Part shown: one piece after another, positions 20,933-28,290 of the stretch
How positions within the stretch are numbered: the first letter of the stretch is position 1
Layout: each line of letters begins with the position of its first letter
Assembly: GCF_003346815.1 (NCBI RefSeq)
Contig: NZ_CP031217.1
Location: 2,232,001-2,296,000 of the forward strand
DNA length: 64,000 nt
Origin: Halarcobacter bivalviorum
GTDB lineage: Bacteria > Campylobacterota > Campylobacteria > Campylobacterales > Arcobacteraceae
Direction of reading: 5' to 3'
The notes under the pieces: model-generated
Told to the model about the DNA's origin: nothing
Seen by the model: the letters and a program-made list of their open reading frames with translations, nothing else
Database searches by the model: none
Made by a program: the position numbers and the translations under genes

Positions 20933-23284
20933 CTATTCTTTATTACAAATTACTTTATATACACAATATTGACAAGTTTGATTATTCTCACATTTATCAA
21001 AAGAGACAGATGTTGTTTTAAATCCATTTATAATACTCTTTAAAAGCTCTAATTTTTCATTTAAAGCTACTTCTTCTAATAGTTTCATATTATATAAATC
21101 ATAATAAAAGGTATTAATATTATTAGAGTTATAAAGATTTTCTAAAGCTAAAAAATAAAATTCTAGTTGAAAATCTGTTGCATTTTCAAAAGTTCTTTTT
21201 GTAGAAATTTTTAGATTTGATGATGTTTTATAATCAATAACAAAATATTCATCTGCTAATACATCTATTCTATCTATCTTTCCTTGAAGTTTTACTCCCT
21301 CATATTCACAAAGAAAAGGTTTTTCTAAAGCAATTATCTTATACCCTTTTTCAAATCTTTTTTCTTCTTGCTCAATAAAATCTTTTAATTTTCTTTTCCA
21401 AATCTCTAAATCAAGATTTAAAAATGGATTCTCACTTCTATATTTATTAAATATTGATAATAAAGCCTCATAACCTCTCTTATCTTGCTTATAATACTCT
21501 TCTAAGCTATCATGCACAATATTTCCTAATTCATAGCCTCTTGGCTTTAAAGAGATATTATGCTCTTTTATTTTTAGAATATGATTTAGATAATATTTTC
21601 TTTTACACTCTAAAAACTCTTTTAATGAACTTGCACTCCAAATAAGTTTTGATAAGTCTATATCTAAGACAATATCTTCGTTAAAATGCTTTAAACTATT
21701 TTGTGAATAAAGTATATGTTTATATTCATTGTCATGTAGTTTTTCAGAAATTTTTATTTCAAACAATCTATTAGCAAATCTACTTATTTGGTCTGAATCA
21801 TTTTTTACAAAAGAGATAGCTACATTTTTTGAATTAGAAATCAATCTTTGATAATAATATTTTTGTAAGTCCTCTCTATCTTTTACAGTAGGTAGATTTA
21901 CTTTTTGTTTTAATGCCGATGATAAGAACTTATCTTTTAAACTTCTTTTAGGAATTAAGGACTCATTAAAATCACAAATTATAATTGCATCAAAATTAAT
22001 TAACCTACTTTCTAATAATCCCATTACAGTGATTTTACCTGAGTTTATATCATCAAGTGTTAAAGAAGATACTTTTTGAAAAAATATTTTAAAAGCATCC
22101 TTTAAAAGAATTGCCTGTTCTTGTGAAAAAATAAGTTTTTCATATCTAAAGCAGACTTCATCAAACTTTTCTAATAGCTCCCTATTCTCTTCTAAACTTC
22201 TTAAATATTCACAAATTTTATCAAACTTATCTTTTGTTAAAAATGACTTTGAGCTATTTGAAAAAATCTCATTATAAAATTCAAAATCTATATTTATATA
22301 TTCAAGGTTTTTAATAACTTTTATTTCATCATCAACTAAACTGCTATTTATTGCATCTAAAGTTTTATATAATCTAGTATCATAAATATCAATACCCATT
22401 GCATAGTTAAAGTACCCTTCATTATCAAATAGTCTTAAAACCTTAGCAAAACTCTCATCTGGTAAAATCAAGGCTATTTTAGAAGGATCAAGCCCTTTAT
22501 TAATAAATTCAACAACTGAATTCTTTATAAAAGCTATTTGATTTATTCTTGAAGAGAAGCCCTCTATTTTCAAACTGTCTAATTCTTCATTTAAAGATTC
22601 ACTTAGAACAATCTCTTTCTTTGATAAATTTATTAAATACTTCTTATCTGTTTCTAATTCAAAGCCATAATCTATAAATTTTTGTATTGATTTTCTATTA
22701 TATTCATTAGAAATAAACTCTATTTCTAAATCAACAATTTGAGAAATATCTTTTACAAGTTCAAATTCAAACTGAGTAAAATATCCTTCAAAAAATATCT
22801 TTATTTTTTTATATCTTTCAATAAAATCTCTATTTAAATTAAAAAATAGATGCATATTAATTCTATCTATTGCACTATTCTTTTCTAATATTTTTAAATA
22901 ATTTTTATAAATTTGAATTAAAATCTCTAAATGCTCTTCATAATATGAATAAGTATCTGCACTGGCAATTGATTCTATACTTACATTTTCACTTGAAATC
23001 TCTAAAAAAAATCTATATATATAATCACTTTGTTTTAAAAAAGAGTTGAAACTTGATGATATTCCTAAAGCTTTTAAATTTACATTTTTAACAGCTTCAT
23101 TTAAATATAAAAATCTTTGTTCTTCATCAATTATTTTTTTATTTTCAAAAAAAAGTGATTTTTTAAAAAACTCATCAATTGTGATGACTGTAGGTAAAAG
23201 AGTATTTGATAGTTTATCTTTATCAAAATACTCTCTTATTGATCTTGAAGTAGGTAATACTAATAAATTATTGCTCTGTAGCAT
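20933..23284 (-). CDS. addB: AddB-type exonuclease subunit (PD-(D/E)XK)
   Basis: Probable second subunit of an AddAB helicase-nuclease that processes double-strand breaks for recombination. 783 residues, similar to the short AddB of Campylobacter and Helicobacter. The N-terminal two thirds resemble an inactive helicase. The C-terminal nuclease has a KIDRID...FVIDYKTSS core with the D-x-K. An iron-sulphur staple is indicated by the Cys in EFLECKRKYYL and the CQYCVYKVIC cluster at the end. Its ATG lies 17 bases inside the end of fixH without a good ribosome site, so translation is probably coupled. No addA is in the window. Confidence 0.82.
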   Translation of the reverse strand: MLQSNNLLVLPTSRSIREYFDKDKLSNTLLPTVITIDEFFKKSLFFENKKIIDEEQRFLYLNEAVKNVNLKALGISSSFNSFLKQSDYIYRFFLEISSENVSIESIASADTYSYYEEHLEILIQIYKNYLKILEKNSAIDRINMHLFFNLNRDFIERYKKIKIFFEGYFTQFEFELVKDISQIVDLEIEFISNEYNRKSIQKFIDYGFELETDKKYLINLSKKEIVLSESLNEELDSLKIEGFSSRINQIAFIKNSVVEFINKGLDPSKIALILPDESFAKVLRLFDNEGYFNYAMGIDIYDTRLYKTLDAINSSLVDDEIKVIKNLEYINIDFEFYNEIFSNSSKSFLTKDKFDKICEYLRSLEENRELLEKFDEVCFRYEKLIFSQEQAILLKDAFKIFFQKVSSLTLDDINSGKITVMGLLESRLINFDAIIICDFNESLIPKRSLKDKFLSSALKQKVNLPTVKDREDLQKYYYQRLISNSKNVAISFVKNDSDQISRFANRLFEIKISEKLHDNEYKHILYSQNSLKHFNEDIVLDIDLSKLIWSASSLKEFLECKRKYYLNHILKIKEHNISLKPRGYELGNIVHDSLEEYYKQDKRGYEALLSIFNKYRSENPFLNLDLEIWKRKLKDFIEQEEKRFEKGYKIIALEKPFLCEYEGVKLQGKIDRIDVLADEYFVIDYKTSSNLKISTKRTFENATDFQLEFYFLALENLYNSNNINTFYYDLYNMKLLEEVALNEKLELLKSIINGFKTTSVSFDKCENNQTCQYCVYKVICNKE

Positions 23285-23837
23285 CTGATTTTATGTATAA
23301 GTATCCTGTATCAGTTGAAGTTTTAAAATTAGCAGTAACATTCCAGTTCCCTTTTAGAGGCAACTCTAAATAAGTTACAAACTCTCCATTTTCTAATTTA
23401 AAATCTTCTGTTTTAAAATCCATAGTAAACTTATGGTTCGTTGGTCTTGAAATTCTAAAGTTAATCTCTAAATCATTAACAATATTTCCATCTTTATCTG
23501 TAACTAATACAGCAACTTTATTTTTACCTTTTACAAAACTATTTTTATGTAAAGATGTCTTTTCAATAACTCTTTGAGCTTTAAACATATCATCAATTAT
23601 TAAATCAAATTTTTTATCATCATTAAATACAATTTGAAAATTATATTTATTTGAAAAAGCTTTATTTGAATTAACAACATCATTAAAATGTTCATCTAAA
23701 TCTTGATAAGACTTTAAAAAAGTTTCATCTTCATGAACTGGAGTATTTACAGCTGAGTAAATTGTCCAAATAATCATTGAAAAAGTAAATGAAAAAAGAC
23801 CAATAAATAATAGAGGCCAAAAATTTCTTTTTTTCAT
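23268..23837 (-). CDS. fixH: FixH-like membrane protein
   Basis: 189 residues. One N-terminal membrane segment (NFWPLLFIGLFSFTFSMIIW, about 5-24) followed by a periplasmic beta-sandwich. FixH-family proteins act in cbb3 oxidase maturation; the KGKNKVAVLVTDKDGNIV...LEINFRISRPTN stretch and the late ELPLKGNWNVTANF fit that family. Context is strong: it lies downstream of ccoNOQP on the same strand. It overlaps addB by 17 bases. Confidence 0.72.
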   Translation of the reverse strand: MKKRNFWPLLFIGLFSFTFSMIIWTIYSAVNTPVHEDETFLKSYQDLDEHFNDVVNSNKAFSNKYNFQIVFNDDKKFDLIIDDMFKAQRVIEKTSLHKNSFVKGKNKVAVLVTDKDGNIVNDLEINFRISRPTNHKFTMDFKTEDFKLENGEFVTYLELPLKGNWNVTANFKTSTDTGYLYIKSDATEQ

Positions 23838-23848
23838 GAATTAGTTTC

Positions 23849-24475
23849 CTATTTTTTTCTTCTTAAAACTGCATACACATATAATAAAAGTCCTGCAACA
23901 ATTAATGAGTACATAAAGACTTTCCATACTGTTCCTGCAACTTTACCTGAACTTCCAATGCTACTTTCAAGTTTGATGTTTTTTGATTCAGCTACTGTAT
24001 CTGCTATTGCAGCATAACCATTCAAAATTGCAGCACTTGCTTTTGCAAAAGTTGAGTTCTTATCTTTTGAGGCAAGTAATGGTACAACATAACTATTTAA
24101 AATCTCATTTTTATCAACAACATTTTTTAAACTTGAAGATACAATTAAATTTACATGAGTATCTTCAACAGCCATACTTAATAAAACATATGGTTCAGCT
24201 AGATTACTTATAATATTTGATTCATACTCTTTAATATATTTAATTTTATCTTTTGTTGAGATATTAGCATCAAGACCTAAAGTACTTTTTGCATAAACAT
24301 AAATATTTACACCTAATTTAGAAAATGTTTCATTACCAATTTCATCTATTTTACCAATAGCTCTTTGGTCAATTAAACCATCATCACTTAAAACGAATTT
24401 GCTTGCATAAAGATTTGAAGATAAGAAAAGTAGCAGTGAAAAAACTGCTACTTTAATAAAGTTAAAATTTTTCAT
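23849..24475 (-). CDS. TPM-domain-like membrane protein in the cbb3 operon
   Basis: 208 residues. Signal peptide (about 1-24, ending LYA-SKF), a periplasmic domain with DDGLIDQRAIGKIDEIGNE and a NIYVYA strand that resembles the TPM domain (PF04536), then a C-terminal membrane helix (about 186-203) and RRKK tail on the cytoplasmic side. Function unknown; TPM proteins are linked elsewhere to photosystem or respiratory complex repair. ATG shares its A with the stop of the 30-codon ORF upstream (TAATG), so it belongs to the cco operon. Confidence 0.6.
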   Translation of the reverse strand: MKNFNFIKVAVFSLLLFLSSNLYASKFVLSDDGLIDQRAIGKIDEIGNETFSKLGVNIYVYAKSTLGLDANISTKDKIKYIKEYESNIISNLAEPYVLLSMAVEDTHVNLIVSSSLKNVVDKNEILNSYVVPLLASKDKNSTFAKASAAILNGYAAIADTVAESKNIKLESSIGSSGKVAGTVWKVFMYSLIVAGLLLYVYAVLRRKK

Positions 24476-24567
24476 TAACCTACATAAACTCTTGCTGAGT
24501 CAAAGAAAGATAAATATGCAGACAGTCCAGCTGCTGCTAATAATAAGATTCCAATAATTTTATCCAT
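24475..24567 (-). CDS. 30-residue single-span membrane protein
   Basis: A short frame starting MDKIIGILLLAAAGLSAYLS and ending FFDSARVYVG. Residues 4-21 are a hydrophobic helix. It has a good AGGAG site seven to eight bases before the ATG. It sits 12 bases after the DUF4006 gene, and its stop overlaps the next ATG by one base (TAATG). These translation signals and its place in the ccoNOQP operon support a real small protein, perhaps an accessory oxidase subunit like the CcoM peptide of Pseudomonas; that comparison is by size and context only. Confidence 0.7.
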   Translation of the reverse strand: MDKIIGILLLAAAGLSAYLSFFDSARVYVG

Positions 24568-24579
24568 TTTTATCTCTCC

Positions 24580-24825
24580 TTATTGAGGTTTACCAACAAG
24601 TTCATAGTGCTTTAAATTTTCAGTACTATTGAATTTTAAAGCATTTAAATCTTGATTGATTTTATAAAAATTTGTAGACTCATTTTGTTGAACTACAATC
24701 GCATTGTACGTTAGTACTCCTAAGATTGTTAGAAGTAAAACTGTTGCAATTAACATTCCTGTAATTCCATGAAGAAGAGAAAATAGTCCTCTTTCATTTT
24801 CATTCATTTGTGAATTTCCAGCCAT
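24580..24825 (-). CDS. DUF4006 family small membrane protein
   Basis: 81 residues. The segment ERGLFSLLHGITGMLIATV followed by LLLTILGVLTYNAIVVQQNE gives one transmembrane helix (about 22-43), then a polar tail. I recall this as DUF4006, a Campylobacterota-specific protein encoded after ccoP. ATG 24825 is one base after the ccoP stop. Its role in the cbb3 oxidase is not established here. Confidence 0.75.
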   Translation of the reverse strand: MAGNSQMNENERGLFSLLHGITGMLIATVLLLTILGVLTYNAIVVQQNESTNFYKINQDLNALKFNSTENLKHYELVGKPQ

Positions 24826-24826
24826 T

Positions 24827-25720
24827 TTACTCTCCTAAACTTCTAATATAAGCAGCAACTGCTTTTTCTTGAGTAGGATTTAATCTACCTTTAAATGAAG
24901 GCATCATACCAATTGTACCTTTTTTACCATTTTCTAAAACAGTAGCTACGATTGCATCATCATACTCAACAATGTTTGGACCAACATAAGCCATACCTTT
25001 ACCATCTGCACCGTGACAAGAAGCACATACTGCATATGCTGCTGGTTGCTCACCTTTAAATCCACCTGCTACATAAGAAGATACTGCATCAATATCTGCT
25101 TGCTCAGTTAACATCATTGGAGGCATACCTGCTGGATATACATCTGGGAAGTTATTTGCACCATTTGTAATTACATATGCAACTTGGTCTTTTGCCATTC
25201 TCTTAGTTAAATCATGTGCCTTTCCATTGATACCTTCAGCATCAACACCATGACAAGGTGCACATTGTACTAAGTATGTAGATTCACCCATTGCAACTAA
25301 AGTTTCATTAGATGGATTTTCCCATTTTGAAGCAAATCTAGCATTATACTCATTTACTTCTTCATTCCATTGACCAATTTGAGAGAACCCAGATGTTGGG
25401 TAACCAATTGTCCAGTACCAAAATAGCCAAACTAAAGTACCAATAAACGCTAATCCCCAACCAGTTGGAATAGGGTTTTTATACTCTCCGATACCGTCCC
25501 AGTTCTCTTCAGATAACTCACCACTCGCAGTATCATTTTTCATTTGATTAACATACTTTAATGCAACAAATACAGTAATAGTAATAATTGCAATAGCAGC
25601 TAACATCGTAAGGTCATTAATATAATCCTCACCAAAGCTAAAAGCATCACCAGCAACAATATATGTTCCTGAGATTAGAGCAATGATAAGAATAATACCA
25701 CCTATTACCATAGATTTCAT
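24827..25720 (-). CDS. ccoP: cbb3 cytochrome oxidase dihaem subunit CcoP
   Basis: Passes electrons from cytochrome c to CcoO/CcoN. 297 residues. Two membrane segments near the N-terminus (about 2-22 and 35-52), the GWGLAFIGTLVWLFWYWTIGYP region, and two c-type haem sites, CAPCH (about 153-157) and CASCH (about 232-236). One base separates it from ccoQ. Start ATG 25720. Confidence 0.96.
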   Translation of the reverse strand: MKSMVIGGIILIIALISGTYIVAGDAFSFGEDYINDLTMLAAIAIITITVFVALKYVNQMKNDTASGELSEENWDGIGEYKNPIPTGWGLAFIGTLVWLFWYWTIGYPTSGFSQIGQWNEEVNEYNARFASKWENPSNETLVAMGESTYLVQCAPCHGVDAEGINGKAHDLTKRMAKDQVAYVITNGANNFPDVYPAGMPPMMLTEQADIDAVSSYVAGGFKGEQPAAYAVCASCHGADGKGMAYVGPNIVEYDDAIVATVLENGKKGTIGMMPSFKGRLNPTQEKAVAAYIRSLGE

Positions 25721-25721
25721 A

Positions 25722-25946
25722 TTATTTCTCCTTCTCTTTATTCTTTTCTTCTTTATTTCTATCTTCGAGAGGATCAGACTCTATCGCATCATCGTGAACT
25801 AAGTTTGAATATTTTTCAAAATCCCTTTCACCCTTTTTATCTCTTCTATATATAGAAAAAGCATACGAATAAAACACAATGAATACTGCCAAGATTAGGA
25901 AAAATTTCGCATAACCTTGTATAGTAAGAAGAGTCTCTTGATCCAT
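25722..25946 (-). CDS. ccoQ: cbb3 oxidase small subunit CcoQ
   Basis: 74 residues with one N-terminal membrane helix (about 10-30) and a highly charged cytoplasmic tail rich in Asp, Glu, Arg and Lys. CcoQ stabilises the cbb3 complex in other bacteria. Identified by size, topology and position between ccoO and ccoP. Confidence 0.88.
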   Translation of the reverse strand: MDQETLLTIQGYAKFFLILAVFIVFYSYAFSIYRRDKKGERDFEKYSNLVHDDAIESDPLEDRNKEEKNKEKEK

Positions 25947-25955
25947 TTTAACCTC

Positions 25956-26639
25956 TTATTTTAAAGAATTTAAATATGCAATTAATGCAACAATTTCAGG
26001 AACTTGACCGTTTGCAACGGCATCTTTTACAGCTTGGTTTTTCATATCAGCAGCAATTGCTTTTGCATCTTCTTTAGCTTTTGCAATAGCGCTTTCATAA
26101 TTACCTAACTCTACATCAATTTTTCCATCACCATCTAAGTCTTGATCATATGGTGTTTTAAATACAGTTTTAACAGTAAATGCTTCTGCATAAGCAGTAT
26201 CTAAATCAGCTATATTAGTAAACTGATGTGGATATGCTGGCATAACAGTTCCAGGTACAACTGAAGCTGGATCCATCATATGTGTCTCATGCCAATCTGT
26301 TGTTCTATAGTTTCCAACTCTCATTAAATCTGGACCAGTTCTTTTTGATCCCCATAAGAATGGTCTATCATATGCATACTCACCAGATAATGAATACATA
26401 CCATATCTATCAGTCTCTGATTTAAATGGTCTAATTAACTGTGAGTGACAAGCATTACATGAATCTTTAATATATACTTGTCTTCCTGCTAACTCTAACA
26501 CACTGTATGGTTTAGTACCAACAGTTGGTCTAGCTTGTTTAGCAAAATCAGGAATAACTTCAATAATTCCTGCGAAAGAAATAAATACAAATACTAATAC
26601 CGCAAAGAAAAACGGTCTTTGTTCAAACCAATGAAACAT
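25956..26639 (-). CDS. ccoO: cbb3 oxidase monohaem subunit CcoO
   Basis: 227 residues. An N-terminal membrane anchor (about 10-28) is followed by a periplasmic cytochrome c domain with CNACH (about 58-62) and a methionine-bearing PGTVMPAYPHQ segment. FKSETDRYG and LRPLMRVG-like RTGPDLMRVGNYR are typical of CcoO. It follows ccoN by 16 bases with AGGAGG upstream of its start. Confidence 0.96.
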   Translation of the reverse strand: MFHWFEQRPFFFAVLVFVFISFAGIIEVIPDFAKQARPTVGTKPYSVLELAGRQVYIKDSCNACHSQLIRPFKSETDRYGMYSLSGEYAYDRPFLWGSKRTGPDLMRVGNYRTTDWHETHMMDPASVVPGTVMPAYPHQFTNIADLDTAYAEAFTVKTVFKTPYDQDLDGDGKIDVELGNYESAIAKAKEDAKAIAADMKNQAVKDAVANGQVPEIVALIAYLNSLK

Positions 26640-26655
26640 TATTACACCCTCCTTC

Positions 26656-28122
26656 TTAAGCCGCTACTGGAGTAGCATTTACTGGTTCTTTATCAAGTAC
26701 TCTACCTGCTGTTGCAGTTTTGTACATGTTATATGCGAACATAAAGAATCCAATTAGGTACATTAATCCACCAACAGCTCTAATTGTATAGTATGGTTGT
26801 AGTACTGTTACAGTATCAATAAAAGAGTATACTAATGAACCATATTCATCATAAGCTCTCCACATCATACCTTGAGTAATACCTGCAATCCACATAGAAG
26901 TAAAGTATAATACAATACCTGTAGTTTGTAACCAGAATTGCGTATCCATTAACGATTTAGAGTAAATCTCTCTTCCATACATTCTTGGTGCCATGTGATA
27001 TAGTGCTGCCATAATCATGAATACAACCCATCCTAAAACACCATCATGTACGTGACCTGGAATCCAATCAGTAAAGTGAGCAATTGCATTTACAGATTTA
27101 ATAGACTGAATTGGTCCTTCGATTGTAGATAACATATAGAATGTTGAAGCTAAAATCATGAACTTAATCAGAGTATTAGATTGTAATTGTTGCCATTCAC
27201 CTTTCATAGTTAAAAGCATATTAATTGCTGATCCCCATGATGGTAAGATTAATACAACTGACATTACAGAACCCATTGTTTGCATCCAATCTGGAACAGT
27301 AGAGTAAATTAAGTGGTGTCCACCTGCCCATAGGTAAACAAATAATAGACCCCAGAAAGCTAAGATTGATAATTTATAAGAGTAAACATTTTGTCCAGAC
27401 TCTTTTGGTAAGAAATAATAAATCATAGCAATAATTGGAACTGTAAATACAAATCCAACTGCATTGTGTCCATACCACCATTGTACTAATGCATCATTTG
27501 TACCTGCATACATAGATACAGAGTGATACCAAGCACCATAACCAGATACAAAGTATGTTGGAACTTCCATATTATTGAATAGGTATAGCATAGCAACTGC
27601 AATAAACCCAGCAATAAAATACCAAATTGAGATATATAATGTTCTTTCTCTTCTAATTCCAATTAAACCGAAAATAGAGATACCATATAATACCCACCAA
27701 ACAACAACTAAAATATCTAAAGGCCATTCTAATTCAGCGTACTCTTTTGAAGTTGTAATACCCATAAATAATGTAACTACAGCTAAAAGAATAGTAATGA
27801 AGTAAAGTACAAAGTGTAACTTTGCTACACCCATTAAGAATGGAGACTCTTTTAAAGATACTTTTAAAACTCTTTGCCCAATATAATACCAACACGCAAA
27901 GATACCACTAAGAGTAAAACCAAAAGCAACACCATTTGTGTGTAAAGGTCTTAATCTACTGAAAGTACCATATTCACCTGCTAGGTTGTTTAAACCTGGA
28001 AATGCAAGTTGAAACGCTAGTATAACACCAATAGTCATACCAATGATACCAAACAGAATTGTTGCAAATGTAAAGGCTTTTGCAATTGAGTAATCGTACT
28101 CGATTTGTGAACCGTTTTGCAT
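26656..28122 (-). CDS. ccoN: cbb3 oxidase catalytic subunit CcoN
   Basis: Haem-copper catalytic subunit that reduces oxygen at low concentrations and pumps protons. 488 residues, about 12 membrane helices. Histidine ligands are recognisable in RPLHTNGVAFGF, WWYGHNAVGFVF, GHHLIYSTVPDW and DWIPGHVHDGVLG. ATG 28122 has AGGAGG six bases upstream; a TTG immediately before it (28125) is not needed. First gene of the ccoNOQP unit, expected to be active in microaerobic growth. Confidence 0.97.
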   Translation of the reverse strand: MQNGSQIEYDYSIAKAFTFATILFGIIGMTIGVILAFQLAFPGLNNLAGEYGTFSRLRPLHTNGVAFGFTLSGIFACWYYIGQRVLKVSLKESPFLMGVAKLHFVLYFITILLAVVTLFMGITTSKEYAELEWPLDILVVVWWVLYGISIFGLIGIRRERTLYISIWYFIAGFIAVAMLYLFNNMEVPTYFVSGYGAWYHSVSMYAGTNDALVQWWYGHNAVGFVFTVPIIAMIYYFLPKESGQNVYSYKLSILAFWGLLFVYLWAGGHHLIYSTVPDWMQTMGSVMSVVLILPSWGSAINMLLTMKGEWQQLQSNTLIKFMILASTFYMLSTIEGPIQSIKSVNAIAHFTDWIPGHVHDGVLGWVVFMIMAALYHMAPRMYGREIYSKSLMDTQFWLQTTGIVLYFTSMWIAGITQGMMWRAYDEYGSLVYSFIDTVTVLQPYYTIRAVGGLMYLIGFFMFAYNMYKTATAGRVLDKEPVNATPVAA

Positions 28123-28290
28123 CAATCTCCTCCTACTAATTTTTTATACAAGTCACTTTTTTGTCACTTATCATCAAAATCTTAGCTAAACGGCAATAAA
28201 TTTAAGCTTAATATTTTAGTTTTTTTTTTAAGTTTTGTTTAATTTTACAAATTTATCTATTGCATAATGATATCAATTATAATTGTAAAT
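28123..28290 (-). promoter_or_regulatory. ccoN upstream region
   Basis: 168 bases between smpB and ccoN. A 12-base perfect palindrome CAATTATAATTG is at 28274-28285. Nearer ccoN, the minus strand has two AAGTGAC copies 11 bases apart (plus-strand GTCACTT at 28152-28158 and 28163-28169). A possible -10 (TAAGAT, minus) lies around 28180. Either repeat could be a regulator site; no FNR-like TTGAT-N4-ATCAA was found. Confidence 0.35.

Follow-up and report, generated by a model that had tools for sequence, protein, structure and literature searches.

What is encoded by the 30-codon open reading frame that lies inside the cbb3 oxidase operon of Halarcobacter bivalviorum? In the window, the whole 64,000-nucleotide stretch of DNA analysed here, this ORF starts with ATG and runs on the minus strand from 24567 to 24475; its product, read from the DNA and its translation, is MDKIIGILLLAAAGLSAYLSFFDSARVYVG. 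Eight bases separate the ATG from an AGGAG ribosome-binding site (24576..24580, minus strand), which begins on the final A of the TAA that ends the DUF4006 gene. At the other end, base 24475 is common to the TAA of the ORF and the ATG of the next gene, giving TAATG. The initial annotation had described both the AGGAG and this one-base overlap, and both are present in the DNA. AlphaFold2, applied to the family alignment A1, predicts one helix covering residues 2–22 with a mean pLDDT of 80.9. The ORF therefore has the length (about 30–35 residues) and the single transmembrane helix, here predicted, that are expected of a CcoY protein. We record 24475..24567 (minus strand) as ccoY, a 30-codon single-helix membrane protein, from sequence, family search, profiles, AlphaFold2 and selection.

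All neighbouring genes lie on the minus strand, in the order ccoN, ccoO, ccoQ, ccoP, DUF4006, the ccoY ORF, a 208-aa CcoZ homologue, and ccoH of the FixH family. The catalytic subunit gene ccoN (26656..28125), ccoO (25956..26639), and ccoQ (25722..25946) score over the cut-offs of TIGR00780, TIGR00781 and TIGR02736, respectively. The dihaem cytochrome c subunit gene ccoP (24827..25720) matches PF14715 and PF13442, and also TIGR00782 at 2e-36, which is under that model's cut-off. The DUF4006 gene (PF13179, 4e-26; 24580..24825) encodes 81 aa with 41% identity over 70 aa to a C. jejuni-like CcoX, and we name it ccoX. A search of CcoX against the PDB gave no convincing chain, the one match (E 0.045) being to tau. 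The product of 23849..24475 has 30% identity (BLASTP, E 6e-22) to a C. jejuni-like CcoZ; despite this clear similarity, a Pfam search up to E 10 found nothing for it. The 189-aa ccoH (23268..23837) matches PF05751 at 6e-09. The ORF thus occupies the slot between ccoX and ccoZ, downstream of ccoNOQP and upstream of ccoH.

The same slot is described for C. jejuni by Garg et al. 2021 (PMC8267372). According to the passages of that paper used here, the C. jejuni order is ccoNOQP-ccoX-ccoY-ccoZ-ccoH, with cj1486c (ccoX, DUF4006), cj1485c (ccoY) and cj1484c (ccoZ) between ccoP and ccoH, and CcoY (Cj1485) is a 33-residue protein with one predicted helix (PMC8267372). Deletion of ccoY significantly lowers the activity of the high-affinity Cco oxidase without abolishing it, and copper does not rescue the mutant (PMC8267372, same passages). 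The mutation lies upstream of ccoZ and ccoH, and genetic complementation of ccoY does not appear in those passages; the phenotype may include a polar effect on the downstream genes. Nine proteins are reported there in a high-molecular-weight band, including CcoX, CcoZ and CcoH, with CcoY absent (PMC8267372). The small size of CcoY could explain this absence, and its physical association with the oxidase remains putative. Neither Cj1485 nor CcoY is mentioned in the main text of the Ribo-seq paper on C. jejuni.

To compare the two loci directly, C. jejuni-like DNA was located by a primer printed in PMC8267372, which matched with at most two mismatches in 10 of 150 genomes. Of 12 published C. jejuni primers, 9 match the 3,024-base locus L148 exactly and a tenth has one mismatch; the two unmatched primers probably lie beyond the end of the locus. 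"C. jejuni-like" is our label for L148 and rests on these primer matches. Its slot holds a 33-codon ORF, MSKALEYLIVIGLVAAAAITAWSVLTVNHLHIG, which overlaps ccoZ by four bases. Since the neighbours in L148 match the CcoX and CcoZ of the window, the window ORF is, by position, the ccoY of its own genome. The initial annotation had remarked that ORFs of this size are often missed by standard gene calling. This does not apply across the group: because C. jejuni CcoY is annotated and a deletion phenotype has been published (PMC8267372, in the passages used), the gene is not an unknown one.

Within the window's family, a six-frame search gave a ccoY match at E≤10 in 96 of 104 genomes. Most of the listed matches cover all 30 residues without an internal stop, a few weak second matches apart, and each of the 30 best-scoring loci contains a complete 30-codon ORF from ATG to stop. 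For these 30 Arcobacteraceae copies, a set biased to close relatives by its selection on score, 433 of 435 pairs had a lower pN than pS, the means being 0.17 and 0.52, respectively. Variable columns numbered 19, 13 and 28 at codon positions 1, 2 and 3. The ccoY frame is under purifying selection. Loss of the frame in relatives, which the initial annotation had named as one outcome that would overturn it, was thus looked for, and the frame is kept; the proposal of a coding, single-helix membrane protein is borne out by conservation, selection and the predicted helix.

Some genomes carry two strong ccoY copies (G091:C1:417043 and 2689710; G061:C10 and C11), which may mean a second cco operon. 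Two loci of the window's family, L184 (G040) and L185 (G076), encode a CcoY of the Campylobacter/Sulfurimonas type, ending in TPNHLFVG, instead of the Arcobacter type. The operon in these two may have been replaced by transfer.

Could the ORF act simply as a translational coupler, handing ribosomes on from ccoX to ccoZ at the TAATG, with a peptide of little weight? The one-base overlap in the window, the ccoY and ccoZ frames that overlap or directly abut in many Arcobacteraceae, and the four-base overlap in the C. jejuni-like locus all favor such a role. However, the excess of synonymous change described above and the conservation of the C-terminal residues speak against it. In addition, no large ORF starting with ATG is listed immediately downstream of ccoY in several Sulfurimonas- and Sulfuricurvum-type loci. 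We therefore reject a function in coupling only, on the grounds of purifying selection, and consider it very unlikely.

The initial annotation had linked the ORF to the oxidase by comparison with CcoM, a single-helix subunit that serves cbb3 stability (PMC8267372, in the passages used). Homology to the 36-residue CcoM of Pseudomonas stutzeri would account for the similar size, the one helix and the association with cbb3. The profile of the family (A1), however, matched no PDB chain at E≤10 in a set in which the presence of the CcoM chain is unconfirmed. The library includes CcoN of 3mk7/5djq, an oxidase that we take to be of the P. stutzeri type, yet A1 found no match there. Moreover, the neighbours ccoX and ccoZ tie the ORF to CcoY and not to CcoM. 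We consider homology to CcoM very unlikely. The operon tie and the helix of the initial proposal stand, while CcoM as a relative is replaced by CcoY, which fits the published C. jejuni locus (PMC8267372, in part). CcoM is also a tiny single-helix cbb3 protein, but the profile search gave no sequence match between it and the ORF; the likeness is probably one of analogy only.

Other small proteins were considered as well. KdpF (PF09604) was rejected at 13.5 bits, against a Pfam gathering cut-off of 21.2. CcoQ/FixQ was rejected because the ORF does not match the FixQ models and the operon has its separate ccoQ. CioY and CydX of the bd-type oxidases are likewise small proteins with one helix whose genes lie next to those of a terminal oxidase (as for C. 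jejuni CioY, in the part of PMC11955535 used here), but they belong to another oxidase family and have other neighbours.

The spread of CcoY across the order was followed by sequence and by gene order. Profile A1 matched 344 of 398 genomes of the order at E≤1, but those with E above about 0.01, which come mainly from families f7, f12, f13 and f15, are not to be taken as real. A phylum-wide search, whose 61 genomes all came from this same order, gave matches in 36 at E≤0.01 and is uninformative on other orders. Among the best 80 of 96 DUF4006 loci taken from genome contigs, which are independent neither of one another nor of the genome set, a short hydrophobic ORF of 29–34 codons directly follows DUF4006 in all 79 that could be read (75 by script and 4 separately). 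The remaining locus, L055, is truncated by a contig end just after the stop codon. With frame, length, slot and residues kept across the order, a chance ORF between two genes, as its shortness and the weak single-sequence statistics against distant relatives might have suggested, is rejected on purifying selection and is barely conceivable.

In family f13, which we take to be Helicobacter-like, DUF4006 is present in 30 of 30 genomes. In 23 of the 24 genomes read, it is directly followed by a hydrophobic ORF of 33–44 codons. In the remaining one (G570, locus L177, about 653–1212), the CcoY-like ORF lies about 450 bases beyond DUF4006 with other small ORFs between, so that all 24 have a hydrophobic CcoY-like ORF. 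At their C-terminal ends, these ORFs often have [VI]PN or [VI]PD and then hydrophobic residues, a pattern reminiscent of TPNHL. This Helicobacter-like CcoY was missed by sequence search and was exposed by gene order. A literature search for HP0149 together with oxidase gave no match.

Profiles were then compared between lineages. Profile A2, built from 24 non-Arcobacter CcoY sequences, found the ccoY ORF as its sole match in the window's own genome, weakly (E 0.088). Conversely, the Arcobacter-only profile A3 missed ccoY in all four Campylobacter-like genomes searched, its best matches (E 0.1–0.5) falling in a long ORF. An hhalign comparison of Arcobacter with non-Arcobacter CcoY gave 96% probability over 29 aligned columns. 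When this comparison was repeated with 200 column shuffles as a control, the real alignment scored 35.7 and the best shuffle 15.3, so that no shuffle reached the real value. Helicobacter CcoY scored 22.4 and 25.1 against the other two groups, with shuffle maxima of 15.5 and 14.9 (0 of 200 each). By profile comparison, the Arcobacter, Campylobacter/Sulfurimonas and Helicobacter sequences are forms of one family.

Arcobacter and C. jejuni CcoY share the ccoX–ccoZ slot in the cco operon, a length of 30–33 residues, one helix and profile-level similarity. They differ at the C-terminal end, which is FFDSARVYVG in Arcobacter and mostly LTxNHLxIG in Campylobacter/Sulfurimonas, with the alignment shifted by one residue. 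Given the same gene order, the order-wide slot ORF and the profile links, the ORF is very probably the ccoY of Arcobacter, an orthologue of cj1485c of C. jejuni that is translated within ccoNOQP-ccoXYZ-ccoH, with a helix that would pack on the oxidase.

The co-occurrence of CcoY with the oxidase was examined in 30 genomes that gave no clear match to CcoY, hand-picked from misses and weak matches and including 7 of the 8 misses in the window's family. Eleven have ccoN over the cut-off, and nine of these also have DUF4006; in the other two, 577 and 1028 bases separate ccoN from the end of a contig. In all nine genomes with both genes, the slot contains a short hydrophobic ORF; one of these ORFs was read with an internal ATG as its start and another with GTG. 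DUF4006 was found in none of the 19 genomes without ccoN over the cut-off. This pattern suggests that the sequence misses mostly reflect divergence or loss of the whole oxidase. Family f15 has DUF4006 in 0 of 13 genomes, and seven members (G117, G134, G148, G161, G173, G218 and G268) have neither ccoN nor DUF4006; judged from their genomes, these seven appear to lack the cbb3 oxidase.

CcoY has one predicted helix and a conserved tail, is strictly linked to ccoX and is missing from genomes that lack the oxidase. It is thus most likely a small membrane subunit of the cbb3 oxidase or a factor in its assembly. We propose that the helix would insert in the inner membrane and pack on the oxidase, or on its CcoX/CcoZ partners, during or after assembly. 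More active enzyme would result, although CcoY would not be strictly required. It could act as a stable CcoM-like subunit, as an assembly factor, or as an aid to the suggested association of the bc complex with the oxidase. More tentatively, CcoX, CcoY and CcoZ might act together as a module accessory to the cbb3 oxidases in Campylobacterales, the order to which the genome search for CcoY was confined, in which a stoichiometric CcoY docks CcoX/CcoZ, and possibly the bc complex, on CcoNOP. The C-terminal motif, which is TPNHLFIG, VPNLFLF or DSARVYVG depending on the lineage, would then be the contact site.

The oxidase activity phenotype belongs to the C. jejuni protein, whereas Arcobacter CcoY is known here from sequence; a requirement for full cbb3 activity, known for C. 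jejuni only, may extend to Arcobacter through its counterpart. The family name and the C. jejuni phenotype were already known, and the order-wide spread and the Helicobacter form are new. An anonymous-looking 30-codon ORF is now tied to a published oxidase phenotype. Since CcoY is found with the cbb3 oxidase throughout the order, CcoY and CcoX belong in any purification or modelling of Campylobacterota cbb3 oxidases.
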